DNA from: Streptomyces sp. NBC_00775
GTDB lineage: Bacteria; Actinomycetota; Actinomycetes; Streptomycetales; Streptomycetaceae
DNA: 64,000 bases
Assembly (NCBI RefSeq): GCF_036347135.1
Contig: NZ_CP108938.1
Coordinates: 1,116,001-1,180,000, forward strand
Direction: 5' to 3'
Part shown: piece by piece, positions 48,042 to 63,380 of the stretch
How the letters are laid out: each line of letters begins with the position of its first letter
How positions within the stretch are numbered: the stretch's first letter is position 1
The notes under the pieces: model-generated
The model's database searches: none
Seen by the model: only the letters and a program-made list of their open reading frames with translations
What the model was told of the DNA's origin: nothing
Translations under genes and position numbers: made by a program

Positions 48042-50044
48042 CAACCCCCCTTGGCCTCGGCGAACGGCTCGCCGTGGACGTACCGGCCGAGCGCGGTGAG
48101 CGGGAAGACCTGCCGGTAGAGGTGGTAGTTGATCGAGAAGTCCCACGGGAACCCGGTGCCGGTGAAGTACGGCTCGTCCCAGGAGCCGTCCGCCAGCTGG
48201 GTCTCCGCGAGCCATTCGACCCCGCGCTCCACGGCCTTGGAGTCGCGCTCCCCCGCGGCGAGCAGCGCGAGCAGGGCCCACCCGGTCTGGGAGGCGGTCG
48301 AGGCGCCACGCCCGCTCCACTCGGCGACGTCGCGGTAGGAGCGCAGATCCTCGCCCCAGCCGCCGTCGTCGTTCTGCACGGTCTCCAGCCAGGCCACCGC
48401 CCGGCGGATCGCCGGATGCGAGGCGGGCAGCCCCGCGGCCATGAGCGCCGGGACCACCGACCCTGTGCCGTATACGTAGTTGACGCCCCAGCGGCCGAAC
48501 CACGAGCCGTTCGGTTCCTGGTGGGCGAGCAGCCACTGGATGCCCCGGCGGGTGCGCGGGTCGTGCGCGAGTCCCTCGACCGCGAGCATCTCCACGACGT
48601 GTGCGGTGACGTCCGCGGACGGCGGGTCGATGACCTCCCCGAAGTCGCAGAACGGCAGCCGGTTGGGGAAGGTGCTGGTGTTGTCGACGTCGAAGGCCCC
48701 CCAGCCGCCGTCCTTGGACTGCATACCGAGGTTCCAGCGGATCCCGCGCCCGATGGCGTTGTCCACACGCTCCGGATCATGGTGCTTGACGCGGCGCAGC
48801 GCGAGGGCGACCTCGGCGGTGTCGTCGATGTCGGGGTAGTTGTCGTTGTGGAACTCGAACGCCCAGCCGCCCGGCGGCAGTTGGGGGCGCTTGACCGCCC
48901 AGTCCCCCGGCCGGACGATCTCCTCGCCGAGCATCCAGTCCGCGGCCTTCACCAGCTGCGGATGGTCGGCGGGCAAGCCCGCGTCGGCGAGCGCGATGGT
49001 CGCCAGGCAGGTGTCCCACACCGGCGACTGGCAGGCCTCGATCATCCGGGCGCCGTCCTCGCGCCATACGGCGAAACGGTCCAGCGACGCCAACCCCTCG
49101 CGCATCACCGGGTGTTCGAGGTCGTAGCCGAGCAGATGCAGGGCGATGACCGAGTACACGGCAGGCGGCTGGATGCCTCCCCAGCAGCCGTCGTTCTCCT
49201 GCCGCTCGATGATCCAGCGGGCGGCCGTGCTCATCGCCGCCCTGCGGAGCCGGCGCGGCGCGACCTTGCGGTACTGGTGCAGCGCCCTGTCGAGACGCTG
49301 GAAGACACCGTCCCAACTCGCCACCGGAGCGAGGGGCTTGACCGGGTTGGGATGGTTTGCGTCGGTGTGCAGCTCGTCGAGCGGGAACGGCGCGGGCCGC
49401 ACCGGACGCTTCGCCGAGACGACGGTGAGCGGCACGATCGTCTGCCGCGCCCAGCAGCCGAAGTCGTAGATGTTGAGCGGCATCCACTTCGGGAAGTAGA
49501 TGAGTTCCGGCGGGAGTTCGGGCAGGTCGTCCCATTTCCACCAGCCGAACAGGGCGAGCCAGATCCGGGTGAAGACCCGGGCCGAGGCGATGCCGCCCCG
49601 CTCACGGATCCAGGCGGACGCCCGTGCCATGTGCGGTTCGTCCGGGGCGTCCCCGGCCAGCCTCAGGGCGACGTACGCCTCGACGGTGGTGGAGAGTTCA
49701 CCCGGTCCGCCGTAGAACGTGGCCCAGGCGCCGTCCTCCCGCTGCTCGCCGCGGATGAACAGCCCGGCGGCGTGCGTCGTCGACTCGTCACGGATGCCCA
49801 GGAACTGACGGAGAAGCAAGTCCTCGGCGTCCATCGTGACGTTCGTCTCGAGGTCGCCCTTCCACCAGCCCTCGGCGTCCTGCCGCGAGAGCAGGAAGTC
49901 GGTGGCGCGCCGCATCGCGTGCGTGGCGACATCTCGGGTCTCGACTGTCCCGGCCGCCACGGGAGTCGTCTGTGTCTGGATTTCGCTGGCCGAGGCAGCG
50001 CGGGGCGGCAGGGCCCCGGTGCTTCCGTCGGTCGTCGCTGTCAT
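48041..50044 (-). CDS. shc: Squalene-hopene cyclase
   Basis: A 667-aa monotopic membrane triterpene cyclase turning squalene into hopene/hopanol. The catalytic DxDDTA box is PDIDDTA at residues 404-410 (Asp407 as proton donor). QW repeats occur throughout, for example DAEGWWKGDLET near 56, REDGAWATFYGG near 102, NDGCWGGIQPP near 284, SKDGGWGAFDVDN near 445 and NDDGGWGEDLRS near 570. A hydrophobic stretch forms the membrane plug. The N-terminal 35 residues are a Thr/Ala-rich extension. There is a 113-bp gap before it after the prenyl synthase, the largest in the operon, so an internal promoter is possible. Confidence 0.97.
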   Translation of the reverse strand: MTATTDGSTGALPPRAASASEIQTQTTPVAAGTVETRDVATHAMRRATDFLLSRQDAEGWWKGDLETNVTMDAEDLLLRQFLGIRDESTTHAAGLFIRGEQREDGAWATFYGGPGELSTTVEAYVALRLAGDAPDEPHMARASAWIRERGGIASARVFTRIWLALFGWWKWDDLPELPPELIYFPKWMPLNIYDFGCWARQTIVPLTVVSAKRPVRPAPFPLDELHTDANHPNPVKPLAPVASWDGVFQRLDRALHQYRKVAPRRLRRAAMSTAARWIIERQENDGCWGGIQPPAVYSVIALHLLGYDLEHPVMREGLASLDRFAVWREDGARMIEACQSPVWDTCLATIALADAGLPADHPQLVKAADWMLGEEIVRPGDWAVKRPQLPPGGWAFEFHNDNYPDIDDTAEVALALRRVKHHDPERVDNAIGRGIRWNLGMQSKDGGWGAFDVDNTSTFPNRLPFCDFGEVIDPPSADVTAHVVEMLAVEGLAHDPRTRRGIQWLLAHQEPNGSWFGRWGVNYVYGTGSVVPALMAAGLPASHPAIRRAVAWLETVQNDDGGWGEDLRSYRDVAEWSGRGASTASQTGWALLALLAAGERDSKAVERGVEWLAETQLADGSWDEPYFTGTGFPWDFSINYHLYRQVFPLTALGRYVHGEPFAEAKGG

Positions 50045-50157
50045 GGCTTCCCCTTCGTGCAGTGGTACGTCTCTGCTGTGGGTCCGCCGTCGGCCGGTGC
50101 GTCCTTGTCCCGCGGCACCGGCCGGCGACTACGCGAGGTTTATTCGACCGATAGTGA

Positions 50158-51285
50158 TCATCTCTTCCGTACGACGACGAAGTCGGCGAGCGCCACGAAC
50201 TGGGCCCGCACCTGGTCGGGCATCTGGACGGCGTCCAGCGCCTCGATGGCGATGGTGTGCTGGCGGCGCGCCTCCTGGGCGGTCCACTCGCGGCCGCCCG
50301 CCTCCTCGATGAGCGCGGCGCGCACGGCGAACTCCTCCTCGGAGAAGTTCTCGAAGTCGCTGGCCTTGGCGTCCTTGGCGAGCAGTTCACCGAGGCGCTC
50401 GGAGGCGGGCCCGCCCGCGGCGAGCGCGGCCACGACCGGCAGGGACTTCTTGCGCTGGCGCAGATCGCTCCAGGTCTGCTTTCCGGTGGCCTCCGGGTCG
50501 CCCCAGATGCCGAGGAGGTCGTCGACGGCCTGGAAGGCCAGGCCCAGGTGGTAGCCGTACTTCTCCAGCGTGTCCGCCGTGAAGTCGTCGGCACCGCCGA
50601 GCACCGCGCCGATGGAGCAGGCGCAGGCGAGCAGGGCGCCCGTCTTGTTGCCCTCCATCTCCAGGCACTCCTCGACGGTGACGCGGTCGCGATGCTCGTA
50701 GGAGATGTCCTGTGCCTGACCGTCGATCAGGGCACGGGTCGCTGTGGTGAGGCGGCGCGTGGCGCGACCCGCCTCCACGGTGCCGAGCTCCAGGAGGATC
50801 TCGTTGGCCAGCGCGAACAGGGCGTCGCCGACGAGGATGGCCTGCGCGGGGCCGTGCACCTTCCAGACGGTGTCGCGGTGGCGGCGCTGCTCGTCGCCGT
50901 CCATCAGGTCGTCGTGCAGCAGCGAGAAGTTGTGCACCAGTTCAACGGCGACCGCACCCGGCACGCCCACCGCGGGGGCGGCGCCGGCGGCCTGCGCGGA
51001 CAGGACGGCGAGCGCGGGGCGTACAGCCTTGCCGCCGTCGCCGTCCGCGGGGTTGCCCTTGGCGTCGATCCAGCCGAAGTGGTAGGCGGCAACGGTGTCC
51101 ATGGGCGCTGCCAGCCGGTCGACGGCCGCCTTCAGCACCGGTGTGGCCAGGGTCCGGCCGCGCTCCAGGAGCGCGGTCACGTCCACCGCGTCGGCAGCCG
51201 TTTCGGCCGGGGGCACAGTGGGCACAGTCTCTCCTCTTGTTGCGGTACCGGGGGTGCGGGGGTCGGTCGCGCGCTGATCGAGCAT
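50158..51285 (-). CDS. Polyprenyl (farnesyl-type) diphosphate synthase
   Basis: A 375-aa trans-prenyltransferase making FPP (or GGPP) from IPP and DMAPP for squalene. The first Asp-rich motif is LLHDDLMDGDEQRRH near residue 122; KTGALLACACSIGAVLGG is near 217. The second motif is reduced to QAVDDLLGIWGDPEATGK (DDLLG in place of DDxxD), a variant common in actinomycete enzymes. The chain length cannot be decided from sequence; context favours C15. The ATG 51285 overlaps the hpnE stop by one base. Confidence 0.92.
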   Translation of the reverse strand: MLDQRATDPRTPGTATRGETVPTVPPAETAADAVDVTALLERGRTLATPVLKAAVDRLAAPMDTVAAYHFGWIDAKGNPADGDGGKAVRPALAVLSAQAAGAAPAVGVPGAVAVELVHNFSLLHDDLMDGDEQRRHRDTVWKVHGPAQAILVGDALFALANEILLELGTVEAGRATRRLTTATRALIDGQAQDISYEHRDRVTVEECLEMEGNKTGALLACACSIGAVLGGADDFTADTLEKYGYHLGLAFQAVDDLLGIWGDPEATGKQTWSDLRQRKKSLPVVAALAAGGPASERLGELLAKDAKASDFENFSEEEFAVRAALIEEAGGREWTAQEARRQHTIAIEALDAVQMPDQVRAQFVALADFVVVRKR

Positions 51286-52703
51286 CAGGCCGCCTCCTCA
51301 AAGACGTCGAAGAGGTGATCGCGAGGCCGGCCCAGGGCGCCCAGCGCGGCTCCCGCCGCACTGATGCCACTGCGGACCGCACTCTCCATGGTCGCGGGCC
51401 ACCCGGTGGCGGTCCACGATCCGGCCAGGTACAGGCCGGGTGCCTTGGTGCGGGCGCCGGGCCGCAGCCGCCCGACGCCCGGGGTGGGGGCGAACGTCGC
51501 CGTGCGCTCCCGGGTCACGAAGAAGTCCTTCACTCCGGCGCCGCGCGCGGCGGGCAGCAGCCGTTCCAGCTCCGGCAGATAGCGCTCGCGCAGTACGGCG
51601 ACGGGCTCGTCGATCTCGTCCTGCGCGGCCGACTGCGACAGCGCGAGGTACTGGCCCTCGCGCAGACCGGACGCCTCGGTCCGGTCGAACACCCACTGCA
51701 CCGGGGAGCCCAGCGCCGCGAAGAACGGCCGGGCGAGCACCTTGCGGTCGTAGACGACATGGATGTTGAGGATCGGCGCGGTGCCGATCTCCAGGAGCCG
51801 CTCAGGGGCGTCGAGCGCCCCCTCGGGCAGCAGATCGTGGGCCTCGCGCTGGGGTACGGCGAGCACGACCGTGTCGGCTTCGAGTGTCTCGCCGGGAACC
51901 TGAACGCTCCAACGCCCGTTTTCGTTGGGGGAGATGGAGGTGACGCGTGTACGGACTTCGGTACGGACGCCCGCGGAGTCGAGCGCCTTGCGGGCCAGGG
52001 TGTCGTGCAGTTCGCCCAGCGGGACGCGCGCCCAGCCGATGTCGGCCGCGCCCGGGTCGGACAGCAGACCGGTCTTGAACACCATCGCGGCGAGCGCCAG
52101 CGACGAGTCGCCGGCCACCGCGTTGAGGGTGGCGACCCCCACGAGGTCCCACAGTGCTTCGACGGCACGCTCCGACTGACCGTGCGCGGCGAGCCAGTCG
52201 CCGAAGTTCTGCGCATCGAGCGCCAGATCGGAGAGATCCAGGCCCTTGAGCGCCAGCGCGGCACGGCCGACCTTGGCGCGCTCGGCGAGCGACAGATGCT
52301 GGTACGTGGCGAGGCTGCGCGCGAGATGCAGCGGTACGGGCAGTGCCGTGCGGCCGATTCTGCCGAGCCGTCGTCCCGGTGTGCCCTCGGCGTCGAGAAC
52401 GGGCACGTCGAGACGATCCTGCAGGGGCGCCAGCAAGGCTCCGTCGACGCGGTCGAGGAACCAGCGGTAGGCGGTGCAGCAGCGCAGATAGACATGCTGG
52501 CCGTTGTCGACCGTCAGCTCGCCGCGCTGGAAGGAGAACGCGAGACCGCCGAGCCGCGGCCGCCCTTCGAGCAGGGTGACCCGCACCCCGGCGTCGGCGA
52601 GCGCGAGCGCCGCGGTGATCCCGGCGAGCCCTCCACCGACCACCACGGCAGCCGCCCCGTCCGGGCGGCCCGAAGCCCCCGCGGGCTGCGTGACCTCGCT
52701 CAT
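51285..52703 (-). CDS. hpnE: Hydroxysqualene dehydroxylase HpnE
   Basis: A 472-aa FAD-dependent amine-oxidase-fold enzyme removing the hydroxyl from hydroxysqualene to give squalene. FAD motif VVVGGGLAGITAALALADAG near residue 20, RPRLGGLAFSF near 48, NGQHVYLRCC near 67, and the C-terminal FAD-binding APGLYLAGSWTATGWPATMESAVRSG near 425. The ATG 52703 overlaps the end of the small ORF as ATGA. Part of the HpnC-D-E squalene route, the bacterial alternative to squalene synthase. Confidence 0.95.
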   Translation of the reverse strand: MSEVTQPAGASGRPDGAAAVVVGGGLAGITAALALADAGVRVTLLEGRPRLGGLAFSFQRGELTVDNGQHVYLRCCTAYRWFLDRVDGALLAPLQDRLDVPVLDAEGTPGRRLGRIGRTALPVPLHLARSLATYQHLSLAERAKVGRAALALKGLDLSDLALDAQNFGDWLAAHGQSERAVEALWDLVGVATLNAVAGDSSLALAAMVFKTGLLSDPGAADIGWARVPLGELHDTLARKALDSAGVRTEVRTRVTSISPNENGRWSVQVPGETLEADTVVLAVPQREAHDLLPEGALDAPERLLEIGTAPILNIHVVYDRKVLARPFFAALGSPVQWVFDRTEASGLREGQYLALSQSAAQDEIDEPVAVLRERYLPELERLLPAARGAGVKDFFVTRERTATFAPTPGVGRLRPGARTKAPGLYLAGSWTATGWPATMESAVRSGISAAGAALGALGRPRDHLFDVFEEAA

Positions 52704-52840
52704 CGTGCACCCTCCCCTGCGGCCGTGCCGCGGTGCTTGAACGGTGCACGGCAGGCCGTTGCAGTCAGGGACGCCACCCGGCCCCGGAGGGTTGCGTGCC
52801 GCTTTTCGCCGGTTGAATCACCTTGGACCGGATTGTCCAT
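52700..52840 (-). CDS. 46-aa conserved small protein between hpnD and hpnE (DUF6380-like)
   Basis: A 46-codon ORF exactly bridges hpnD and hpnE. Its ATG (52840-52838) overlaps the hpnD stop (TGATG) and its TGA overlaps the hpnE start (ATGA). The peptide begins MDNPVQGDSTGEKRHATLRG and ends TAAGEGAR: basic, with no hydrophobic helix. Both couplings and the perfect fit make translation very likely, and it matches the DUF6380 small protein seen at this place in other Streptomyces hopanoid operons. It may serve mainly to couple HpnD and HpnE levels, or be a small accessory factor; the function is unknown. Confidence 0.8.
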   Translation of the reverse strand: MDNPVQGDSTGEKRHATLRGRVASLTATACRAPFKHRGTAAGEGAR

Positions 52841-53790
52841 CAGGCGCGCCTCCTGACGGTACGGCGGGACACATGCCGGGCATCGAGGCCGGAGAGGCCG
52901 CGCACGGCGACGTACGCCTTCTCACGTCCGGGCAGCGAGACCCGGCCGCGCAGCACGGCCTCCGGCTCGCGCTCGATGCGGTCGAGCAGGCGGCGGTAGA
53001 TGCCGGCCATCGCCGCGACACACGCGCCGCTGCGCCGGTCGAGCATGGGCAGCAGCCGGTAGCCCTCGGCGAAAAGAGCGCGGGCCCGACGCACTTCGAA
53101 GTGCACGAGGCCCGCGAAATCGGAGCCGGGCGGTGGAGTCGGTCCGTTGAACCCGGCCGAGCAGCCGAACTTGGCCAGATCGTCGGCGGGCAGATACGTG
53201 CGCCCGCCCTCGGCGTCCTCGCGTACATCCCGCAGGATGTTGGTGAGTTGGAGCGCGAGCCCGAGCGTGTCGGCATACTCCGGCGCGCGCTCGGCGCCGC
53301 GCGCCCCCGGTTCCGTACCGAACACGCCGAGCGAGAGCCGCCCGATCGCCCCGGCCACGCAACGGCAGTAGACCTTCAGGTCGTCCCAGGTCTCGTACGT
53401 CTCTCCGCGTACGTCCATGAGGACGCCGTCGATGAGTTCGTCGAGGCCTGCGAGGGGCACCGGGAAGTACTCGGCGGTGTGGCTGAGGGCGACCGCGACC
53501 GGGTCGGTGTCGTCCTCGTCGACGGACCCGGCACGGACCCGGGCGAGCAGTGCCCGGGTGTCCTCCAGGCGGGCCGACTTGACGTCCGCTGCGAGCGTGC
53601 CGTCGCCGATGTCGTCGACACGCCGGGAGAACGCGTAGAGCGCCGACATGGCGCGGCGCTTGGGCGTCGGCAGAAGTCTGATGCCGTACGCGAAATTACG
53701 GGCCTGCTGACCGGTCACTGCCTCGCAGTAGCTGTACGCGGCGAGTACCGGTGCGGGCACGTGTTGTTCCGACTCCACGGTCCGGATCAC
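52840..53790 (-). CDS. hpnD: Presqualene diphosphate synthase HpnD
   Basis: A 316-aa squalene/phytoene-synthase-fold enzyme condensing two FPP to presqualene diphosphate. Substrate-Mg motifs are visible: SRRVDDIGDGTLAAD near residue 55 and QLTNILRDVREDAEGGRTYLPADDL near 177, with YCRCVAGAIGRL near 140. The GTG 53790 overlaps the hpnC stop (GTGA) and has GAGGAG just upstream; a second in-frame GTG at 53778 is less likely. Confidence 0.95.
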   Translation of the reverse strand: MIRTVESEQHVPAPVLAAYSYCEAVTGQQARNFAYGIRLLPTPKRRAMSALYAFSRRVDDIGDGTLAADVKSARLEDTRALLARVRAGSVDEDDTDPVAVALSHTAEYFPVPLAGLDELIDGVLMDVRGETYETWDDLKVYCRCVAGAIGRLSLGVFGTEPGARGAERAPEYADTLGLALQLTNILRDVREDAEGGRTYLPADDLAKFGCSAGFNGPTPPPGSDFAGLVHFEVRRARALFAEGYRLLPMLDRRSGACVAAMAGIYRRLLDRIEREPEAVLRGRVSLPGREKAYVAVRGLSGLDARHVSRRTVRRRA

Positions 53791-54689
53791 CCCTCTCCTC
53801 GCAGAGTCACTCCCACCTCGCGCAGCAACTGGAGCTTGCCGGGCTTGGGCGGGCCGGGAAGTACGTCGTATTCGGCGGCGGCAATCGCACGGATTGCCGC
53901 CCTTCCTCCCGCAACGAACCCCGCGAGCAGCAGCTTCAGCCTGCCGTGGACGCTACCCACGAGGGGGGTGCCTTCATTCAGGAGGTTCAAGGCGTGTTCT
54001 GCTTCGTATGCAACCAGTGCTCGCATCGATGCGCCTGCTGTGGCGGCGGCGAGATCCGCCTCCTGGACGTGGAAGCGTTTCATGTCCTCGGCAGGCAGGT
54101 AGATACGGTCGCGGCCGAGGTCCTCGGCGACGTCTTGGAGGTGTTCGACGATCTGCAGCGCCGTGCACACCGCGTCGGAGCGGCGGACGCGATCGGGCGT
54201 GGAGGTTCCGGTGACGGAGAGGACCAGACGGCCGACGGGATTGGCGGACAGCTCACAGTAGGCGAGCAGGTCGTCATAGGTCTCGTACCGCTTGACCAGC
54301 TGGTCCTGGCGGTTGGCCGCGATCAGGCCGAGGAAGGGCTCGGGGGTGAGGCCCGCGCGGCGGACAGTGGGCTGGAGCCGGCGCAGCAGCGGGTGGCGCG
54401 GTGTCGAGTCGAACACACGGTGAAGATCGGCTTCGAAGGCGTCAAGGAGGAGGAGACGGTCCTCGGCCTCCTCGGGCGACGCGCCGAGCAGGCGGGCGTC
54501 CGCGCCACCCGGGGCGAGGTCGCCGTCACCGATGTCGTCGACGAGACGGGCAAAGCCGTACACGGCCATCAGATCGTCGCGCCAGGCCTTGGGCAGGAAG
54601 AAGGGTGCCACGGGAAAGTTCTCGTCCGCGGCCTTGTCGAGGGTGCCGCGCTCCGGATCACCAGTACGCGCCGTGCCGGCTTCGGTCAC
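53787..54689 (-). CDS. hpnC: Hydroxysqualene synthase HpnC
   Basis: A 300-aa paralogue of HpnD that converts presqualene diphosphate to hydroxysqualene. Motifs: RLVDDIGDGDLAPG near residue 50 and IVEHLQDVAEDLGRDRIYLPAEDM near 180, ENFPVAPFFLPKAWRDDLMAVYGFAR near the N-terminus. The GTG 54689 overlaps the stop of a 21-codon ORF (GTGA) and gives the normal length; a GTG at 54719 would add ten unconserved residues inside that ORF. First enzyme gene of the hopanoid operon. Confidence 0.94.
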   Translation of the reverse strand: MTEAGTARTGDPERGTLDKAADENFPVAPFFLPKAWRDDLMAVYGFARLVDDIGDGDLAPGGADARLLGASPEEAEDRLLLLDAFEADLHRVFDSTPRHPLLRRLQPTVRRAGLTPEPFLGLIAANRQDQLVKRYETYDDLLAYCELSANPVGRLVLSVTGTSTPDRVRRSDAVCTALQIVEHLQDVAEDLGRDRIYLPAEDMKRFHVQEADLAAATAGASMRALVAYEAEHALNLLNEGTPLVGSVHGRLKLLLAGFVAGGRAAIRAIAAAEYDVLPGPPKPGKLQLLREVGVTLRGEG

Positions 54690-54751
54690 CGCTCGCCGCC
54701 CGGCGCGGGGACGGCACACGCGTCGCGGAGCTGGAGAGATTCCGTAGCCAT
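54686..54751 (-). CDS. Putative 21-aa leader ORF coupled to hpnC
   Basis: ATG 54751 opens a 21-codon frame (MATESLQLRDACAVPAPGGER) ending in TGA that overlaps the hpnC GTG as GTGA. GGGAG lies about 11 bases upstream of the ATG. hpnC itself has no good RBS, so ribosomes finishing this peptide could initiate it. The peptide has no recognisable domain; it may be an upstream coupling or attenuation device. It is supported by position and coupling only. Confidence 0.5.
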   Translation of the reverse strand: MATESLQLRDACAVPAPGGER

Positions 54752-55046: not shown

Positions 55047-55826
55047 CTACTTGCCCGTGAACTTCTCGTACTCCTTGAGGACCTCTTCGGTCGGGCCGTC
55101 CATGCGCAGCTCACCGCGCTCCAGCCAGAGCACGCGGTCGCAGGTGTCGCGGATCGACTTGTTGTTGTGACTGACCAGAAACACCGTGCCCGCGCTCTTG
55201 CGCAGCTCGCGGATGCGGGCCTCGGAGCGCTTCTGGAAGGAGCGGTCGCCGGTGGCGAGGGCCTCGTCGATCATCAGGACGTCGTGGTCCTTGGCGGCCG
55301 CGATGGAGAAGCGCAGGCGGGCCGCCATGCCGGACGAGTAGGTGCGCATCGGGAGGGTGATGAAGTCGCCCTTCTCGTTGATGCCGGAGAAGTCGACGAT
55401 CTCCTGGTAGCGCTCCTTGATCTGCTCGCGGGTCATACCCATCGCGAGCCCGCCCAATATGACGTTCCGCTCGCCCGTCAGATCGTTCATCAGGGCCGCG
55501 TTCACGCCGAGCAGCGAGGGCTGGCCGTCGGTGTAGACCTTGCCCTTCTCGGCGGGGAGCAGGCCGGCGATGGCACGCAGGAGCGTGGACTTGCCGGAGC
55601 CGTTCGAGCCGATCAGGCCGATGGCCTCGCCGCGGTACGCGGTGAAGGAGACGCCCCGGACGGCGTGCACCTTGCGTACGCCGGGCGACTCGCCGCGCTT
55701 GATGATGCGGCTGAGGGCGGCGGTCGCGCTGCCCTTGCCGGTCTTGGCGCCGTTGACGCGGTAGACGATGTGCAGCTCGTCCGCGATGACGGTGGGGATG
55801 TGGGAGTCGGTCCTCTGCTCAGCCAC
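55047..55826 (-). CDS. Polysaccharide/polyol-phosphate exporter, ATPase subunit (TagH/Wzt-like)
   Basis: A 259-aa ABC ATPase of the ABC-2 teichoic-acid/O-antigen export type. HIVYRVNGAKTGKGSA and RKVHAVRGVSFTAYRGEAIGLIG precede the Walker A GSNGSGKSTLLRAIAGLL near residue 80. TYSSGMAARLRFSIAAA is the signature and VLMIDEALATGD the Walker B near 185; SHNNKSIRDTCDR carries the switch His. It lacks the C-terminal carbohydrate-binding extension of Wzt, so it is of the TagH/RfbB short type. The start is GTG 55826, overlapping the permease gene's stop by 8 bases. Confidence 0.9.
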   Translation of the reverse strand: MAEQRTDSHIPTVIADELHIVYRVNGAKTGKGSATAALSRIIKRGESPGVRKVHAVRGVSFTAYRGEAIGLIGSNGSGKSTLLRAIAGLLPAEKGKVYTDGQPSLLGVNAALMNDLTGERNVILGGLAMGMTREQIKERYQEIVDFSGINEKGDFITLPMRTYSSGMAARLRFSIAAAKDHDVLMIDEALATGDRSFQKRSEARIRELRKSAGTVFLVSHNNKSIRDTCDRVLWLERGELRMDGPTEEVLKEYEKFTGK

Positions 55827-56748
55827 GGCCGTACCTCTCCTCTGCCTTCCAGAAGTACACGAACCCGCCGAGGGCGACGACCACGGCCCAGAAGACGGCG
55901 ATGGCCCACACATGCGGGGGCAGGTTGGAGGAGCCGTAGCCGTCGATGAGGGCGTAGCGCATCAGGTCCATGTAGACGGCGGCCGGGTTCGCCTGCAGTG
56001 CGCGGGCGATCCACTCCGGGCGGCCGGCGAGCATGGTGCTGATGGAGAACATGACGCCGGACGCGTACATCCAGGTCCGCAGGATGAACGGCATCAGCTG
56101 GGCGAGGTCCGGGGTCTTGGCGCCCATCCGGGCCACGATCAGCGAGAGTCCCACGTTGAAGAGGAACTGCAGCACGAGCACCGGCACGATCAGCAGCCAG
56201 GACGCGCTCGGGTAGCTGCCGAAGCCGATCGCCACGACGAACAGCACGATCATCGAGAAGAGCAGCTGCTGGAGCTGCTGGAGCGCGAAGGAGATGGGCA
56301 GCGAGGCGCGCGGGAAGTGCAGCGCGCGCACCAGCCCCAGGTTCCCGGAGATCGCACGGACGCCCGCCATGATCGAGCTCTGTGTGAAGGTGAAGACGAA
56401 GACACCCGTCACCAGGAACGGGATGTACACGTCGTGCGACATACCGCGGTTGGCCTTCAGGATCAGGCCGAAGATCAGGTAGTAGACGCCCGCGTTGAGC
56501 AGCGGGGTCGCCACCTGCCACAGCTGGCCCAGCTTGGCCTGGCTGTACTGGGCGGTGAGCTTCGCCTGCGAGAAGGCGAGGATGAAGTGCCGCCGCCCCC
56601 ACAGCTGACGAACGTATTCGGCGAGTCCGGGCCGGGCGCCGCTGACCGCGAGCCCGTACTTGGTGGCCAAGTCGGCCGCGGAGAGCCCGTCATCGGGCGA
56701 CGGTCGGTCGCTCACCGCGACTCCGCCGTCATGCGTTGTCTCACTCAC
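55819..56748 (-). CDS. Polysaccharide/polyol-phosphate exporter, permease (TagG-like)
   Basis: A 309-aa ABC-2 membrane protein with six helices: an amphipathic lead (YVRQLWGRRHFILAFSQAKLTAQYSQAKLGQLWQVATPLLNAG) then LIFGLILKA, FLVTGVFVFTFTQSS, LQQLLFSMIVLFVVAIGF, LLIVPVLVLQFLFNVGLSLIVAR, and a final helix. The amphipathic start and RYQSxLGxLWxxxxP pattern are diagnostic of TagG/Wzm. GTG 56748 is taken as start; an alternative upstream ATG at 56799 is also in frame. It pairs with the ATPase to export an undecaprenyl-linked product. Confidence 0.88.
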   Translation of the reverse strand: MSETTHDGGVAVSDRPSPDDGLSAADLATKYGLAVSGARPGLAEYVRQLWGRRHFILAFSQAKLTAQYSQAKLGQLWQVATPLLNAGVYYLIFGLILKANRGMSHDVYIPFLVTGVFVFTFTQSSIMAGVRAISGNLGLVRALHFPRASLPISFALQQLQQLLFSMIVLFVVAIGFGSYPSASWLLIVPVLVLQFLFNVGLSLIVARMGAKTPDLAQLMPFILRTWMYASGVMFSISTMLAGRPEWIARALQANPAAVYMDLMRYALIDGYGSSNLPPHVWAIAVFWAVVVALGGFVYFWKAEERYGRG

Positions 56749-56847
56749 AGTGGAAACTTTCGTCTTCAAGATGCGCACAGCCAGGACGGGCGTAGGCATG
56801 AGCCGGGGACCGGGGTACGGCCACGAATGCTCTCAGAAACGAGCTTG

Positions 56848-57720
56848 TCAGATCACAGGAGGTCGGCCCAGTCGAGTCAGCCGCCACACCGTACGCCACT
56901 TCATGGGACGCCGGGGCCCGCACGGAGTGGTCCAGCCCTCCTTGAAGCCGCCGAACCAGGCCTTGAGCGCCGGTTTCGAGGGGCGGCGCAGCAGCGTCAG
57001 GAGCATCCAGACACCGAGGTAGACCGGAACGAGCGGCGCCGGAAGGTTTCGGCGCGCGAGCCAGACGCGGTTGCGGGCCACCATGCGGTGGTAGACCGCG
57101 TGCCGCGAGGGCGCGGTGGTCGGGTGGTACAGCACCATGTCGGACCGGTAGTCGATCATCCAGCCCGCGTCGAGGGCCCGCCACGCGAGGTCGGTTTCCT
57201 CATGGGCGTAGAAGAACTCGTCCGGGAGCCCGCCGACCTCGGCGAAGACCTCCGTACGGACGGCGTTGGCGCCGCCGAGGAAGGTGGTGACCCGCGAGGA
57301 GCGCATCGGGTCGGAGGCGCGCAGCCGCGGAACGTGACGGCGCTGGGTCTCGCCCGTGTCCGGGTCGGCGATGCGGAAGCTGACGATGCCGAGCTTCGGG
57401 TCTGCCGTGAAGGCCCGGCGGCACAGCTCGGCGGTGTCGTGCGTGGCGAGGAGGCCGTCGTCGTCCAGGAAGAGAAGGACGTCCACGTCGGTGCCGCCGG
57501 GGCCGAAGGCCTCGATGCCGACGTTGCGGCCGCCGGGTATGCCGAGGTTCTCGGGCAGCTCGACGGTCCGCACTCCGGCGGGGACGTCCGGGACGGGCGA
57601 GCCGTTGCCGACCACGACCACCTCGACGCGGTCGCCGTCCTGCTTGGCGACGGAGTCCAGCAGGGCCCGGAGTTCCTCGGGTCGGTTGCCCATGGTGATG
57701 ATCACCGCGCCGACCTTCAT
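56848..57720 (-). CDS. Glycosyltransferase family 2
   Basis: A 290-aa GT-A-fold glycosyltransferase. VGAVIITMGNRPEELRALLDSVAKQDGDRVEVVVVGNGSP opens the nucleotide-sugar fold. ENLGIPGGRNVGIEAF near residue 58 resembles rhamnosyl/galactofuranosyl transferases. The metal-binding Asp triad is LLFLDDDGLL near 85, and EVGGLPDEFFYAHEETDLAWRALDAGW (ED-x-D-like acceptor motif) is near 165. A C-terminal hydrophobic helix (LVPVYLGVWMLLTLL) suggests membrane association. Starts 8 bases after the CDP-alcohol transferase stop. It probably adds a sugar to the exported product. Confidence 0.88.
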   Translation of the reverse strand: MKVGAVIITMGNRPEELRALLDSVAKQDGDRVEVVVVGNGSPVPDVPAGVRTVELPENLGIPGGRNVGIEAFGPGGTDVDVLLFLDDDGLLATHDTAELCRRAFTADPKLGIVSFRIADPDTGETQRRHVPRLRASDPMRSSRVTTFLGGANAVRTEVFAEVGGLPDEFFYAHEETDLAWRALDAGWMIDYRSDMVLYHPTTAPSRHAVYHRMVARNRVWLARRNLPAPLVPVYLGVWMLLTLLRRPSKPALKAWFGGFKEGWTTPCGPRRPMKWRTVWRLTRLGRPPVI

Positions 57721-57728
57721 CGCGGCAC

Positions 57729-58508
57729 TCACTTCAGCCTGCTGGAGACGAGGATGGACACGAGGTGCAGCAGGGTCTGCAGGAGCGCGATGGCGGCCAG
57801 TACGGCGACGCCGAGCCGGGTGAAGAACAGGTCCCCGCGCACCTGGTCCAGGATCGCCAGGACCAGGATCAGCAGGGACGCCTCGATCCCGAGCACCAGC
57901 CGGTGGAACTTCAGCGCCGCGGCGGCCTTGCGGGCCAGCGCCATGCCGGACGAGCGCGGCTCGGACGCCGCCTCCTTGACCGGCGGCAGCCCGCCCTGGT
58001 GGCGGGCGACGCCGACGAGGTCGGTCTCGGCCTTGATCAGGATCGCGCCGAGGGCCGCCAGCGTGCCGAGGAAGGCCCAGAGCCAGTCGATCCGCCCGGA
58101 GCCCCACAGATCGGCGGCGCGCAGGCCGAAGCCGACGAGCACCGCCGCGTCGGTCAGATAGGCGCCGACCCGGTCCAGGTAGACGCCGCTGAGCGAGAAC
58201 TGCTGCCTCCAGCGGGCGATCTCGCCGTCGACGCAGTCCAGCAGCAGATACAGCTGGACGCACACCACGCCGAGCACGGCGCCCGCGATCCCCGGCACCA
58301 GCAGGGCCGGGGCCGCGAGCACGCCGAAGACGGTCATCAGGTACGTGAGCTGGTTGGGCGAAACCCTGGTGTTCACCAGGTAGCGGTCGACCCGCAGGGA
58401 CACCTCACGCATGTAGAGGCGTCCCATCCAGTGCTCACCGCTGCGCCGGTCCTTCACCCCCGGGGGGTGAACGACGGGGCGGAGTTCAGCTACCGATGGC
58501 CTTGGCAT
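57729..58508 (-). CDS. CDP-alcohol phosphatidyltransferase-family protein lacking one catalytic Asp
   Basis: A 259-aa polytopic membrane enzyme of the CDP-alcohol phosphotransferase family, which transfers phosphoalcohol groups from CDP-alcohols. The motif D-x2-D-G-x2-A-R-x8-G-x3-D-x3-D is DCVDGEIARWRQQFSLSGVYLDRVGA at residues 91-116. All positions are kept except the last: Ala116 replaces the fourth Asp, the proposed general base. About six helices follow. It overlaps the dehydrogenase gene by 23 bases. It may be inactive in the usual chemistry, or use a different base; its full-motif paralogue is encoded at 60284. Confidence 0.85.
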   Translation of the reverse strand: MPRPSVAELRPVVHPPGVKDRRSGEHWMGRLYMREVSLRVDRYLVNTRVSPNQLTYLMTVFGVLAAPALLVPGIAGAVLGVVCVQLYLLLDCVDGEIARWRQQFSLSGVYLDRVGAYLTDAAVLVGFGLRAADLWGSGRIDWLWAFLGTLAALGAILIKAETDLVGVARHQGGLPPVKEAASEPRSSGMALARKAAAALKFHRLVLGIEASLLILVLAILDQVRGDLFFTRLGVAVLAAIALLQTLLHLVSILVSSRLK

Positions 58509-59547
58509 AGTCGGTGTAGATGTCCTTGATCTGGTTGGTTTTCAGGTCGAGGTGTTCGAGGATCGTGTAGCGGCCGGGCCGGGTCTGCGGAGCGAACTCC
58601 ACGACCTGCACGAACTCGTCCACGGTGAAGCCGATCTCCTCCGGCAGCACCGGCAGTCCGTGCCGGTGCAGCACCTCGGCCATGTACGCCGACTCCTCGT
58701 GTGCCCCCCGCAGATACATCGCGAAGGCCGCGCCCAGACCGCACTGCTCGCCGTGGCTCGCCGCGCGCTTGGGGAAGAGGAGGTCGAAGGCGTGGTTGAT
58801 CTCGTGGCAGGCACCGGACGAGGGCCGTGAGTCACCGGACACCGACATGGCGATCCCGCTGAGGACCAGCGCCTCGGCGAGCACCTGGAGGAAGGCGTTG
58901 TCACCGATGCCGCCCGGGTGCCGCAGCACGGCCTCACCGGCCTGGCGGGCCATCGCGGCGGCGAGACCGTCGATCTTCTCGCCGTTGACGCGGTTCGCCA
59001 GCTCCCAGTCCGCGATCGCGGAGATGTTGGAGACGGCGTCGCCGATGCCGGCGCGCACGAACCGTACGGGGGCCTCGCGGATCACATCGAGGTCGATGAC
59101 GACCGCGATGGGGTTCGGCACACCGTACGAACCGCGGCCCGCGTCGTTGTCGAGGGTCGCGACGGGCGAGCAGAGGCCGTCGTGCGCGAGGTTCGTGGGC
59201 ACGGCGACCAGCGGGAGGCCGACGCGTGCCGCGGCGAACTTCGCGCAGTCGATGATCTTGCCGCCGCCCAGGCCCACGACCGCGTCGTAGTGCCCGGCCT
59301 TTATGGCACCGGCCAGCCGGATCGCGTCGTCGAGGGTGCCGCCGCCGACCTCGTACCAGGTGGCGCCCGGCAGGGCAGGGGCGATCCGCTCGCGCAGCCT
59401 GGCGCCGGAGCCGCCGCTCACCGCGACGGCGAGCTTGCCCGAATGCGAGATCCGCTGGTCGGAGAGCACACTCGCCAGGTCGTCCAGGGCACCCGGCCGG
59501 ATGTCGACGACGACCGGCGAGGGGATGAGCCTCGTCAGTACAGGCAC
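58486..59547 (-). CDS. Iron-containing alcohol dehydrogenase, glycerol-1-phosphate-dehydrogenase-like
   Basis: A 353-aa enzyme of the Fe-ADH/EgsA-AraM group. The NAD-binding GGGTLDDAIRLAG and VVGLGGGKIIDCAKFAA (GGG-S/K-x2-D) are near residues 68-100; VAVPTNLAHDGLCSP is typical of glycerol-1-phosphate dehydrogenases. The metal ligands appear retained: Asp in AGIGDAVSN, His in ACHEINHAFD and His in AASHGEQCG. It would reduce DHAP or a related ketose phosphate to an sn-1-type polyol phosphate, supplying the nucleotidyltransferase. The start is GTG 59547, overlapping the upstream gene by 13 bases. Confidence 0.88.
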   Translation of the reverse strand: MPVLTRLIPSPVVVDIRPGALDDLASVLSDQRISHSGKLAVAVSGGSGARLRERIAPALPGATWYEVGGGTLDDAIRLAGAIKAGHYDAVVGLGGGKIIDCAKFAAARVGLPLVAVPTNLAHDGLCSPVATLDNDAGRGSYGVPNPIAVVIDLDVIREAPVRFVRAGIGDAVSNISAIADWELANRVNGEKIDGLAAAMARQAGEAVLRHPGGIGDNAFLQVLAEALVLSGIAMSVSGDSRPSSGACHEINHAFDLLFPKRAASHGEQCGLGAAFAMYLRGAHEESAYMAEVLHRHGLPVLPEEIGFTVDEFVQVVEFAPQTRPGRYTILEHLDLKTNQIKDIYTDYAKAIGS

Positions 59548-60287
59548 GCGATCTCACGTCCCTTGGCGAGGTCGTCGTGGTTGTCGATCTCGACCCACTT
59601 GACGTCACCGATCGGCGCGACATCGATCCGGAAGCCGCGGTTGACGAGTTCCTGGTAGCCGTGCTCGTAGAACTGCTGCGGGTCGGTCTCCCACACCGTC
59701 TTCAGAGCGTCGGTCAGGTCGGCGGCGGCGTCGCCCTCGATGAGGGTGACACCGATGTACTCACCGGTGGCCTCGGACGGCTCCATCAGCTTGGTGATCT
59801 TCTGGACGCCCTTGGCGGGGTCCACGACGACCTTCATCTCCTCGTCCGCGAGGTTCTTCACCGTATCGAGGGCGAGGATGATCTTCTTGCCGTCGCCGCG
59901 GGCGGCGAGCAGCGTCTTCTCGACGGAGACCGGGTGCACGGTGTCGCCATTGGCGAGGATCACACCGTCCTTGAGGGCGTCACGGCCGCACCACAGGGAG
60001 TAGGCGTTGTTCCACTCCTCGGCCTTGTCGTTGTCGATGAGGGTGATCTTGAGGCCGTACTTCTCCTCAAGGGCCGCCTTGCGGTCGTACACGGCTTCCT
60101 TGCGGTAGCCCACGATGATGCCGACCTCGGTCAGACCGATCTCGGCGAAGTTGCCGAGGGTCAGGTCCAGGACCGTGATGCTGTCCTCTATGCCCGCGGG
60201 CCCCACCGGCACGAGAGCCTTGGGGAGGCTGTCGGTGTAGGGACGCAGACGCCGTCCGGCGCCGGCCGCCAGCACGAGGCCGATCAT
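59535..60287 (-). CDS. Nucleotidyltransferase for a sugar/polyol phosphate (LicC/IPCT-like)
   Basis: A 250-aa NTP transferase activating a phosphorylated alcohol as its CDP (or UDP) form. The signature LAAGAGRRLRPYTDSLPKALVPVG is at residues 6-29; EWNNAYSLWCGRDALKDGVILANGDTV near 90 gives the NGD metal motif, and VKWVEIDNHDDLAKGREI near 233 resembles the inositol-1-phosphate and phosphocholine cytidylyltransferases. It is small, without a hexapeptide tail. With the CDP-alcohol transferases on both sides, a CDP-polyol product is likely (inference). Overlaps the DUF5941 gene start/stop as ATGA. Confidence 0.9.
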   Translation of the reverse strand: MIGLVLAAGAGRRLRPYTDSLPKALVPVGPAGIEDSITVLDLTLGNFAEIGLTEVGIIVGYRKEAVYDRKAALEEKYGLKITLIDNDKAEEWNNAYSLWCGRDALKDGVILANGDTVHPVSVEKTLLAARGDGKKIILALDTVKNLADEEMKVVVDPAKGVQKITKLMEPSEATGEYIGVTLIEGDAAADLTDALKTVWETDPQQFYEHGYQELVNRGFRIDVAPIGDVKWVEIDNHDDLAKGREIACLY

Positions 60288-62089
60288 GCGGGTTCTCCTT
60301 CATCGTGTACGGCGGGCGCCCCGGAGGACACCCAGAAGCGGATGCTCTCGACGAGCACCAGCAGCGCCACGGCCACGGCGAGCACCGTGAGCGCGACCTT
60401 GAACTGTTCGGCGGTGAGCAGCGCGGCCAGGACGGTGACCAGCAGCGTCCTGCCTTCGTGCCCGCCGATCGCCCGCACCAGCCAGTGCGGGGGGGCTCCG
60501 GCGTTGCCGCGGATGCGGTACACCGTGTCGTAGTGATGGTAGGCGACGGCGGCCACCAGGCCGAAAGCCGCAGGAAGCGCTCCGTTCACGTCGGCGTTGG
60601 CCGCCAGTACCAGAACGGTGAGGTATTCGGCCGCGCGGAAGAACGGCGGGACCAGCCAGTCGAGGGCGCCCTTGAGGGGGCGGACGACGGCCAGCGGCGA
60701 CAGCAGTACGTAGAACACGGCGCCCAGCACGGGCCACCAGCTGCCGTAAGGGGCGAGCCAGGCCGCGAGGACGACGACGGCGCCGCCGGCCAGCGCGGTG
60801 ACCGCCGGTGCCCGCAGGGGCACGCGGCGCGCGAAGCGCGTCAGCAGCTCGGCGAGCGGTCCGCTGTCCGTGAGGTCGGCCAGCGCCTGCGCCGCGCGGT
60901 CCGTGCGTCGCGCCTTGCGGGTCAGGGAGCGCAGTACGCGGCCCGCCGTGGTGTACGTCGCCGCGAAGGCGCAGCCGATGATCAGCGCGTAGAAGGTGAT
61001 GCGCGGGGTGGTCAGCGCCGTGAGCACGGCGATCATCGCCCAGCGTTCGCCGATGGGCAGGACTATCATCCGGCGCACCCAGACCGTCCAGCCGACGCTG
61101 TCGAGCTTGTCCGAGAGGGCCGCGGTGGGGCTGGTGTTGGCGGTGGCGTCGTGGTTCGCCTCGTTGAAGGAGAAGTCGACGACATGCCGGCAGGTCTGCA
61201 GGATCATCGCGCCGAGGGCGAGCGCCCACACGTCGTCGCCGCCACGGGCCGCTCCGAGGGCGAGGCCCGCGTAGTAGGCGTACTCCTTGGCGCGGTCGAA
61301 GGTCGCGTCCAGCCAGGCGCCGAGCGTCGAGTACTGCAGGGCGTAGCGGGCGATCTGACCGTCCACGCAGTCCAGGACGAAGGAGAACATGAGCAGCAGA
61401 CCGGCCGCGACGAACCCGGCGCGGGTGCCGGTGGCGGCGCAGCCCGCTGCGATCAGCGCGGTGATCAGTGAGGCGGTGGTGACCTGGTTCGGAGTCAGGC
61501 CGCGGCGGGCGCACCAGCGGGCGATGTAGCGCGAGTACGGGCTGATGCAGTACGTGGTGAAGAAGCCGTCGCGGGCCTTCACGGCGCTGCGCAGTCGTAC
61601 GGCCTCGTCGTCCACGGCCGAGACGGCCTGCCGGGCCTCGTTGCGCTCCTGCGGGTCGGCCGGTACGGCCGCGACCAGCGTGCCGAGCTCGGGGCGGTAC
61701 ACGGCGACGCCGTCCGCGTCGAGCGACGCGGTGAGGCGTTCGGCGAGGTGGTCCGTGGCGACGGCGAGGCCGCCGGAGGCGGAGCTCTCGCGGGCCACGG
61801 CCCGGGTCAGGGCCTTGCGGGCCTCGGGCTGCACCGATATGGCTCCGGGCAGCGCGGAGGCCGCGAACCGGGGGTCCGTGAGGCCGAGGCGCAGCGCGTG
61901 CGGGTGCCCCACGAAGCGGGCGTCGACGACGGCGACCCGCTGGTCCAGGGGGACGGCGGCAAGGAGCGTCTCGGCGTCACCGGCGTCGGCGGCGAGCCGT
62001 ACGTCGAAGCCGAGCGACCGCAGATCGCCCTCAAGCGACGATCCGGGAACCGGCTGGCCGGTGAGGATGGCGGTCGACAGCGAACTCAC
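60284..62089 (-). CDS. CDP-alcohol phosphotransferase with DUF5941 domain
   Basis: A 601-aa membrane protein, first gene of the operon. The N-terminal ~170 residues are soluble (TGQPVPGSSLEGDLRSLGFDVRLAADAG..., a degenerate nucleotidyl-like or regulatory region). Then come FFTTYCISPYSRYIARWCARRGLTPNQVT and the complete CDP-alcohol transferase motif DCVDGQIARYALQYSTLGAWLDATFD with both terminal Asp residues. A polytopic C-terminal half (DUF5941) follows with many helices. The architecture recalls archaeal/bacterial IPCT-DIPP synthase fusions. GTG 62089 is preferred; the frame extends to ATG 62173 without clear support. Confidence 0.82.
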   Translation of the reverse strand: MSSLSTAILTGQPVPGSSLEGDLRSLGFDVRLAADAGDAETLLAAVPLDQRVAVVDARFVGHPHALRLGLTDPRFAASALPGAISVQPEARKALTRAVARESSASGGLAVATDHLAERLTASLDADGVAVYRPELGTLVAAVPADPQERNEARQAVSAVDDEAVRLRSAVKARDGFFTTYCISPYSRYIARWCARRGLTPNQVTTASLITALIAAGCAATGTRAGFVAAGLLLMFSFVLDCVDGQIARYALQYSTLGAWLDATFDRAKEYAYYAGLALGAARGGDDVWALALGAMILQTCRHVVDFSFNEANHDATANTSPTAALSDKLDSVGWTVWVRRMIVLPIGERWAMIAVLTALTTPRITFYALIIGCAFAATYTTAGRVLRSLTRKARRTDRAAQALADLTDSGPLAELLTRFARRVPLRAPAVTALAGGAVVVLAAWLAPYGSWWPVLGAVFYVLLSPLAVVRPLKGALDWLVPPFFRAAEYLTVLVLAANADVNGALPAAFGLVAAVAYHHYDTVYRIRGNAGAPPHWLVRAIGGHEGRTLLVTVLAALLTAEQFKVALTVLAVAVALLVLVESIRFWVSSGAPAVHDEGEPA

Positions 62090-62402: not shown

Positions 62403-63380
62403 ATGACATGGCTGATCACAGGCGGAGCCGGATACATCGGGGCCCACGTGGCGCGGGCGATGGCGGAGGCCGGGGAGCGCGTCGTCGCCCTCGACGACCT
62501 CTCGTCAGGGGTGCCGAAGCGGCTTCCGGAGAGCATTCCCCTCGTGCAGGGCTCGTCACTGGACGGAGATCTGCTGAAGCGGGTCTTCGCGGAGCACGCG
62601 GTGACGGGTGTGGTGCACCTCGCCGCACGCAAGCAGGTCGGCGAGTCCGTGGCCCAGCCGACGCGCTACTACCAGGAGAACGTGGGCGGGCTCGCGACGC
62701 TCCTGGAGGCGGCCGCCGGGGCGGGCGTCAAGCGGTTCGTCTTCTCCTCGTCGGCGGCCGTCTACGGCAACCCTGATGTGGACCTCATCACGGAGGACAC
62801 CCCCTGCGCCCCGATGAGCCCGTACGGCGAGACGAAGCTCGCCGGGGAGTGGCTGGTGCGGGCGGCGGGCCGGGCGCACGGCATCGCGACCGTGTGCCTG
62901 CGCTACTTCAACGTGGCGGGCGCGGCCACGCCCGAGCTCGCCGACACCGGGGTGTTCAACGTGATCCCGATGGTCTTCGACCGCCTCACGCGCGACGAGG
63001 CCCCGCGGATCTTCGGCGACGACTATCCGACGCCGGACGGCACCTGCGTCCGTGACTACATCCACGTCGCCGACCTCGCCGAGGCGCATCTCGCGGCGGC
63101 CCGGCGGCTGGCCGACGGCGCGACGGGCGATCTGACGGTGAACATCGGCCGCGGCGAAGGCGTTTCGGTCCGCGAACTCATCACCCTCATCGGCGAGGTC
63201 AGCGGGGACACCCGGGAGCCGCTCGTCGAACCGCGCCGCCCCGGCGACGCCCCGCGCGCGGTCGCCTCGGCCGAGCTGGCCGCGCGGGAGCTCGGCTGGA
63301 GCGCGCGGCGCGGGGTGCGCGAGATGGTCGGGTCGGCGTGGGAGGGCTGGCGGCTGCACCGCCCCCGGACACAGGATTAG
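62403..63380 (+). CDS. galE: UDP-glucose 4-epimerase (SDR family)
   Basis: A 325-aa extended SDR interconverting UDP-glucose and UDP-galactose (or another UDP-hexose pair). The Rossmann motif is WLITGGAGYIGAHVARAM at residues 3-20, AARKQVGESVAQPTRYYQENVGG near 75. The catalytic Ser is in FSSSAAVYGNP near 118, and the Tyr-Lys pair is in MSPYGETKLAGEW near 139. FNVIPMVFDRLTRDEAPRIFGDDYPTPDGTCVRDYIHV is typical of GalE. ATG 62403 follows a TAGGGT box by 8 bases. Divergent from the glycan/phosphoalcohol operon, for which it may supply a UDP-sugar. Confidence 0.93.
   Translation: MTWLITGGAGYIGAHVARAMAEAGERVVALDDLSSGVPKRLPESIPLVQGSSLDGDLLKRVFAEHAVTGVVHLAARKQVGESVAQPTRYYQENVGGLATLLEAAAGAGVKRFVFSSSAAVYGNPDVDLITEDTPCAPMSPYGETKLAGEWLVRAAGRAHGIATVCLRYFNVAGAATPELADTGVFNVIPMVFDRLTRDEAPRIFGDDYPTPDGTCVRDYIHVADLAEAHLAAARRLADGATGDLTVNIGRGEGVSVRELITLIGEVSGDTREPLVEPRRPGDAPRAVASAELAARELGWSARRGVREMVGSAWEGWRLHRPRTQD

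Follow-up and report, generated by a model that had tools for sequence, protein, structure and literature searches.

In Streptomyces sp. NBC_00775, a cluster of seven minus-strand genes probably produces glycerol-1-phosphate units destined for a teichoic-acid-type polymer of the cell envelope, and also transfers and exports them. The genes, designated A to G in order from the most upstream, occupy positions 55,047 to 62,089 of the window, meaning the whole 64,000-nucleotide stretch of DNA analyzed (RefSeq assembly GCF_036347135.1, contig NZ_CP108938.1, positions 1,116,001 to 1,180,000 of the forward strand). Within this proposal, the substrates, the stereochemistry, the order of steps, the acceptor and the parts played by A and D are what we infer. 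The genes and their domain assignments are as follows.

Gene A, 60284-62089, minus strand: CDP-OH_P_transf domain with a C-terminal DUF5941 domain (E 2e-99)
Gene B, 59535-60287, minus strand: NTP_transferase of the LicC / PntC / inositol-1-phosphate cytidylyltransferase type
Gene C, 58486-59547, minus strand: Fe-ADH_2, glycerol-1-phosphate-dehydrogenase-like (EgsA/AraM family)
Gene D, 57729-58508, minus strand: CDP-OH_P_transf, second CDP-alcohol phosphotransferase of the operon
Gene E, 56848-57720, minus strand: GT2 glycosyltransferase
Gene F, 55819-56799, minus strand: ABC2_membrane, permease of a TagG/Wzm-type ABC exporter
Gene G, 55047-55826, minus strand: ABC ATPase of a TagH/Wzt-type exporter

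All seven genes that an earlier note on this DNA had listed on the minus strand are present, and the tight spacing that it described holds, with overlaps at the A/B (4 bases, ATGA), B/C (13 bases), C/D (23 bases) and F/G (8 bases) junctions and short gaps of 8 bases between D and E and 48 bases between E and F. The gene starts chosen are least certain for E, F and G; gene A was assigned the GTG start at 62089 because aligned relatives begin there.

In the proposed pathway, C would reduce dihydroxyacetone phosphate to sn-glycerol-1-phosphate and B would couple this product with CTP to form CDP-1-glycerol, which is enantiomeric to the CDP-glycerol that TagD produces; both activities are predicted from family chemistry. 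The membrane CDP-alcohol phosphotransferase A, and D in some manner, would use CDP-1-glycerol to transfer glycerol-1-phosphate onto a lipid-linked acceptor as a priming or linkage unit, after which E may add a sugar and F and G may export the product. CDP-1-glycerol would also serve TagF-type polymerases whose genes lie outside the operon in the same genome. A broader proposition, which is possible but which we put forward with considerable doubt, is that many Actinomycetes build teichoic acids from CDP-1-glycerol, with wall and lipid-anchored polymers both containing sn-glycerol-1-phosphate and with CDP-alcohol phosphotransferases acting as glycerol-phosphate transferases.

The prediction for gene C comes from family models, solved chains and conserved residues. 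Its top NCBIfam model was NAD(P)-dependent glycerol-1-phosphate dehydrogenase (G1PDH; E 4e-72, 243 bits), compared to 92 bits for the glycerol dehydrogenase model. The Pfam Fe-ADH_2 cut-off was also exceeded (98 vs 28 bits), this being a wide family that was matched in 13 of 14 control genomes as well. Against solved chains, gene C scored 89-148 bits with G1PDH and at most 72 bits with named glycerol dehydrogenases, except for 3ce9 (148 bits). D170, H248 and H265 occupy the positions that we presume to be those of the metal ligands, and the family positions GD (GE in one of ten sequences), HEIxH and HG are kept. Gene C is the sole match of its kind in its own genome at E≤1e-15, and its nearest proteins, 89-95% identical among the 120 matches listed, come from Streptomyces wherever a source is named. 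Actinobacterial G1PDH sequences, including one from Streptomyces, were known earlier, according to passages of PMC5059525; bacterial G1PDH is discussed mainly in Bacillus in passages of PMC13400652. When a profile of gene B was compared with solved structures, 6pd1, LicC (1jyk) and 4jd0 came first, and passages of two papers describe 6pd1 as PntC of Treponema (PMC6697681) and 4jd0 as the inositol-1-phosphate cytidylyltransferase of Thermotoga (PMC12275187). The AlphaFold2 model of gene B is confident (mean pLDDT 95).

The genome has teichoic-acid genes outside the operon. Four full-length TagB/F (PF04464) matches lie at 6.56-6.59 Mb, in a region that also holds a second TagG/TagH pair, to which F and G are 68% and 86% identical, and a second galE. 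A galE-like gene in the window (62403-63380), divergent from gene A, is 68% identical to that second galE (6.58 Mb). Searches of the genome gave no TagD match (TIGR01518, E≤0.01) and no TagA match (WecG/TagA/CpsF, PF03808, E≤0.001), and the Bacillus subtilis control was positive in both cases. TagA was rejected as a member of the pathway in this genome because PF03808 had no match; in another genome (G003), a TagA gene comes after a pair of C and a phosphotransferase gene.

We compared the occurrence of B with that of TagF and TagD in a class sample of 256 genomes, using thresholds of E≤1e-25 for B, E≤1e-10 for TagB/F and E≤1e-30 for strong TagD. B was present in 62 genomes, including all 23 Streptomyces (own genome counted), TagB/F in 98 and strong TagD in 20; at a looser E≤0.001, a TagD-family match occurred in 98. 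TagB/F was found in 59 of the 62 genomes with B, compared to 39 of 194 without B (Fisher p 1e-27, uncorrected for ancestry), whereas strong TagD was found in none of the 62 B genomes and in 13 of the 39 TagF genomes without B. Seven of the 20 strong-TagD genomes have no TagF. B occurs in nine families, and in each of these at least one genome combines B with TagF; with families as units (46, from the labels on view) the association of B with TagF gave p 4e-5. Within one family (f7), TagD was present in 10 of 12 TagF genomes, B instead in one (G595) and neither in one.

A direct physical link was observed at locus L198 of genome G452 (family f81), where B, C, TagG, TagH, TagF and a GT4 gene lie on one strand. 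Here, TagG and TagH abut, the TagH/TagF and TagF/GT4 junctions overlap by 4 bases if the first start codons are used, and the gap between C and TagG is ~100 bases. The TagF protein has GT2 and Glyphos_transf domains (Glyphos_transf E 2e-100), no phosphotransferase gene is found between C and TagF, and the TagD match in this genome is weak and partial (E 3e-9, 65 of 125 positions). At two other loci TagF is on the opposite strand: L197 has a TagF gene (Glyphos_transf E 6e-95) after E, and L196 has a nearly full-length TagF match ~4.5 kb from C. Three loci, L202, L206 and L207 (the last from G483, of the same family as G452), match the N-terminal glycosyltransferase part of TagF1 only and were not counted as TagF neighbors. 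The B gene of genome G108 shares 4 bases with a neighbor whose Glyphos_transf match is weak, only just passing the cut-off (24.5 vs 22.1 bits). A second copy of C in G334 (L099 9378-10505; 75%, no B match) lies ~5.6 kb from a TagF gene, and we give this proximity little weight because ribosomal-protein and obg genes lie between.

We also built a tree of 24 TagF domains, four from the own genome and 20 hand-picked from the class-sample matches. The own TagF1 grouped with the TagF of L198 and that of G399 (100/100), and this clade was sister (95/93) to the TagF of four TagD genomes, indicating that the same polymerase type occurs with either supply. The other three own TagF genes fell in a separate group with B genomes. 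Labels of B or TagD were clustered on the tree, requiring 4 changes compared to 8.0 in shuffles.

The gene block is conserved well beyond the genus. In a phylum sample of 396 genomes, B (E≤2e-45) was present in 20 and C (E≤2e-94) in 21, with both in 20; the one genome with C but no B carries its C on a 4.3-kb contig. DUF5941 was found in 19 genomes of this sample, including 12 of 12 from the genus, and all 12 of these Streptomyces showed both A-B-C and C-D-E linkage (own genome counted in each case). Beyond these 12, a strong B occurs in eight genomes. Four of them, from outside the class, maintain the A-B-C-D-E order on a single strand at ~34-54% identity. Three more of the eight showed B-C-D-A-E, B-C with a diverged phosphotransferase, and TagG-TagH-B-C-D-E, respectively; in the last, the fetched 20 kb contained no A. 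Several distant genomes carry a relative of gene E after D. A profile of C yielded 587 relatives, the best 80 of which served as named loci; 39 of these 80 are titled Micromonospora, and the set also takes in Salinispora, Actinoplanes, Nocardiopsis, Frankiaceae, Solirubrobacter and Nitriliruptorales. B overlaps C at 76 of the 76 named loci that have B (ends estimated from alignments), and a CDP-alcohol phosphotransferase motif comes directly after C at 72 of the 80. Thus, the operon is conserved, and its gene order is not due to chance.

Some relatives of the block show further features. The two domains of A, phosphotransferase and DUF5941, match in different frames in two distant genomes, which would reflect either two genes or a frame error. 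Three distant genomes have sulfotransferase genes near the block, a hint of a sulfated polymer. In three genomes of the phylum sample, a C of 37-41% identity stands beside a B-like gene of 25-29% identity, possibly an alternative form of this pair, and in one of them (L092) a DUF4012 gene and a sugar-transferase gene adjoin it.

For the transfer step, gene A has an intact DxxDGxxAR(8)GxxxDxxxD motif at residues 240-265, which we take to be that of CDP-alcohol phosphotransferases, and the D, G, A and R positions of this motif were invariant across 17 aligned sequences. The nearest solved relative of gene D is AF2299 (PDB 4o6m), which is also the top match of gene A. For DUF5941, no paper was found in the open-licence PMC literature.

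A number of results weigh against our reading, some of them bearing on chemistry and transfer and others on the link between B-C and TagF. Gene D lacks the fourth Asp of the motif and has Ala in its place. Among its relatives at the 72 named loci with a motif directly after C, this residue is Asp in 53 and His in 19, and the 53 with Asp are all titled Micromonospora or other genera of the Micromonosporaceae. The best NCBIfam model of gene G is TagH, at 184 bits compared to a cut-off of 320 bits. Gene C falls below the cut-off of the curated equivalog NF002022 (243 vs 413 bits). Glycerol-1-phosphate gave no product with CpgD, a relative of 4jd0 that is likewise a cytidylyltransferase and comes from Caulobacter, as reported in passages of PMC12275187; thus, the family of gene B does not imply that substrate. 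The sub-cut-off score of C also favors a reading in which the alcohol is not glycerol, C reducing another ketose phosphate and B making the matching CDP-polyol (ribitol, arabinitol or inositol). Further matches in its favor are those of B to inositol-1-phosphate cytidylyltransferases and, far under cut-off, those of A and D to the DIPPS and PIP synthase profiles. We consider this reading quite improbable, as the best matches of C by family and (with 3ce9) among solved chains are G1PDHs, its GD, HEIxH and HG positions are kept, and the sister clade of TagF1 comes from TagD genomes and thus presumably uses a glycerol donor.

With respect to TagF, B-C lies at 1.18 Mb in the own genome and does not adjoin the TagF genes at 6.56-6.59 Mb. 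Neither B nor strong TagD was found in 26 of the 98 TagF genomes of the class sample, members of families f8, f103, f85, f99 and f100, among others. Streptomyces and a single other family (f89) account for 45 of the 62 B genomes, and the association tests ignore ancestry. Twelve of 23 Streptomyces had some TIGR01518 match at E≤0.001, and seven had a nearly full-length match (E 2.5e-15 to 1.5e-17); such medium TagD-like proteins could be another source of CDP-glycerol. The labels on the TagF tree do not form two clades, as the TagF of one B genome (G462) falls among TagD genomes and both TagF of G595 are unplaced. Gene pairing has exceptions too: B and C are ~15 kb apart in G108, and no B was found at four of the 80 named loci, three of which have at least 5 kb upstream of C at hand. 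Finally, the own genome encodes an IspD-SDR fusion (TarI/TarJ, ribitol kind) ~2 kb from a distant Glyphos_transf gene at 7.17 Mb (region at L209 1426-2970 and L184 472-2568), which is likely to be a separate CDP-ribitol-type module.

Several of these observations would be accommodated if B-C made CDP-1-glycerol only for A and D, for assembly of a separate glycolipid or lipoteichoic-acid-like molecule, while TagF used CDP-ribitol or a TagD-like CDP-3-glycerol. The frequency of a phosphotransferase motif directly after C, the presence of a separate TagG/TagH pair and galE in the own TagF region, and the IspD-SDR fusion all favor this arrangement, as does the finding that S. hygroscopicus makes a poly-glycerol-phosphate lipoteichoic acid in a group, the actinobacteria, without clear LtaS orthologues (passages of PMC3196553). 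However, the authors of that paper favor, in the same passages, a pathway common to lipoteichoic and wall teichoic acid, no phosphotransferase gene separates C from TagF in L198, and B co-occurs with TagF. On balance, we regard a supply reserved for A and D as rather unlikely, and we prefer the reading in which TagF-type polymerases would share the donor.

Two further alternatives would place the operon outside polymer synthesis. One is a glycerol-1-phosphate membrane lipid, like the heptaprenylglyceryl lipid of Bacillus, or a phospholipid head group. In its favor, C is an EgsA/AraM family member, most CDP-alcohol phosphotransferases belong to lipid metabolism, and hopanoid-like genes lie just downstream on the same strand (window 48041-54719, beginning ~330 bases downstream of gene G); from their translations, we take these minus-strand genes to be squalene-hopene cyclase, a polyprenyl synthase and HpnE/D/C. 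This alternative is very unlikely, because no prenyl-ether synthase was recognized among the seven genes, head groups need neither a TagGH exporter nor a GT2 enzyme, and elsewhere B or C is found near TagF, TagA (L093, the G003 locus) or sugar transferases. A role in lipids only was rejected for the missing prenyl-ether gene and the wall-polymer-type neighbors in other genomes. The other is an osmolyte pathway of the di-inositol-phosphate type, suggested by weak matches to IPCT and DIPPS profiles. Here, A, B and D reached 41-54 bits compared to the NF041135 cut-off of 580, none of the seven is an inositol gene, and an exporter and a GT2 enzyme would be senseless for a cytosolic solute, making this pathway barely credible. 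Membership of the di-inositol-phosphate and PIP-synthase families was rejected because the matches are far under the cut-offs.

The earlier note had proposed that the operon makes an activated polyol phosphate, builds a phosphodiester-linked glycan or lipid from it and exports the product. An outline of this kind, with CTP activation of a polyol phosphate, its transfer, the addition of sugar and the export of a lipid-linked polymer, fits every family assignment, and the chemistry of the note is partly supported. The note was right that the gene set differs from both the Bacillus teichoic-acid set and the di-inositol-phosphate set; a place for the operon apart from teichoic-acid synthesis is not supported. 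Two refinements can be added, with C narrowing the polyol phosphate to glycerol-1-phosphate and B-C being tied to TagF-type polymerases, a link absent from the note, by the L198 operon of another family and by the presence of B alongside TagF in genomes lacking strong TagD. Its description of the pathway as undescribed needs qualification. A 2026 synteny study lists, in the part covered, a CDP-alcohol phosphatidyltransferase, a GT2 and a sugar-phosphate nucleotidyltransferase clustered with crtB, tagG, tagH and araM in Streptomyces and calls the region teichoic-acid-biosynthesis associated (PMC13118837). Judging from the gene names, this region appears to be that of the present operon; the passages of that study propose no pathway, and none for the operon was found in the partly viewed result lists from the open-licence PMC literature. 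A tagF study of S. coelicolor is cited in passages of PMC7831098.

Passages of two papers frame what the proposal would mean. In B. subtilis, wall teichoic acid consists of sn-glycerol-3-phosphate supplied by TagD, and lipoteichoic acid of sn-glycerol-1-phosphate supplied by phosphatidylglycerol (PMC7086022). CDP-1-glycerol was called likely absent from bacteria in 2021; the TagF-like Cps7D polymerizes it whereas Cps3D cannot, and the TagD-type Cps3B and Cps7B take both glycerol phosphates (PMC8262930). If true, the broader proposition on Actinomycetes would amount to a route to CDP-1-glycerol in bacteria and to lipoteichoic acid synthesis independent of LtaS. Confirmation of the role proposed for the operon would account for the glycerol-phosphate polymers that a large group of soil bacteria makes without the usual enzyme. 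The lipoteichoic and wall teichoic acids of S. hygroscopicus are very similar poly-glycerol-phosphates, and how actinobacteria without a clear LtaS orthologue make the former is a question raised in passages of PMC3196553, for which the operon offers candidate genes. Stereochemistry terms do not occur in the text of that paper. The reading predicts the chirality of the polymer, which bears on its recognition by hydrolases and by immunity.

The operon shares parts with several known systems and departs from each. The mycobacterial galactan exporter Wzm/Wzt is matched by F and G far under cut-off (Wzm as the best NCBIfam model of F, 55 vs 380 bits; Wzt as the third-best of G, 159 vs 400 bits), and no galactan gene was recognized among the seven. 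In Archaeoglobus fulgidus, a cytidylyltransferase activity takes both glycerol phosphates and prefers glycerol-1-phosphate, the substrate predicted for B, but it is named as a step toward archaeal glycerophosphoinositol and its enzyme is called unidentified in passages of PMC8262930; AF2299 of Archaeoglobus has the fourth Asp of the motif, whereas gene D does not. As in the PntC and LicC systems (passages of PMC6697681), a cytidylyltransferase of the same family would activate a small phosphate compound destined for glycans or lipids of the cell surface, but glycerol-1-phosphate is the substrate predicted for gene B, and no Ppm or choline gene is found among the seven. Gene C resembles the AraM and EgsA glycerol-1-phosphate dehydrogenases in family and active-site pattern; unlike them, it has a cytidylyltransferase gene and genes of the wall-polymer type as neighbors rather than ether-lipid genes, and it scores under the NCBIfam cut-off. 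Finally, like the wall teichoic acid pathway of B. subtilis (TagO-A-B-D-F-GH; passages of PMC7086022), the predicted pathway would combine a CDP-glycerol donor, a lipid-linked polymer and TagGH-type export in a genome with TagB/F; unlike that pathway, it would operate in a genome without TagD or TagA matches, include the additional phosphotransferases A and D, and obtain its donor from B and C, which points to the sn-1 enantiomer.

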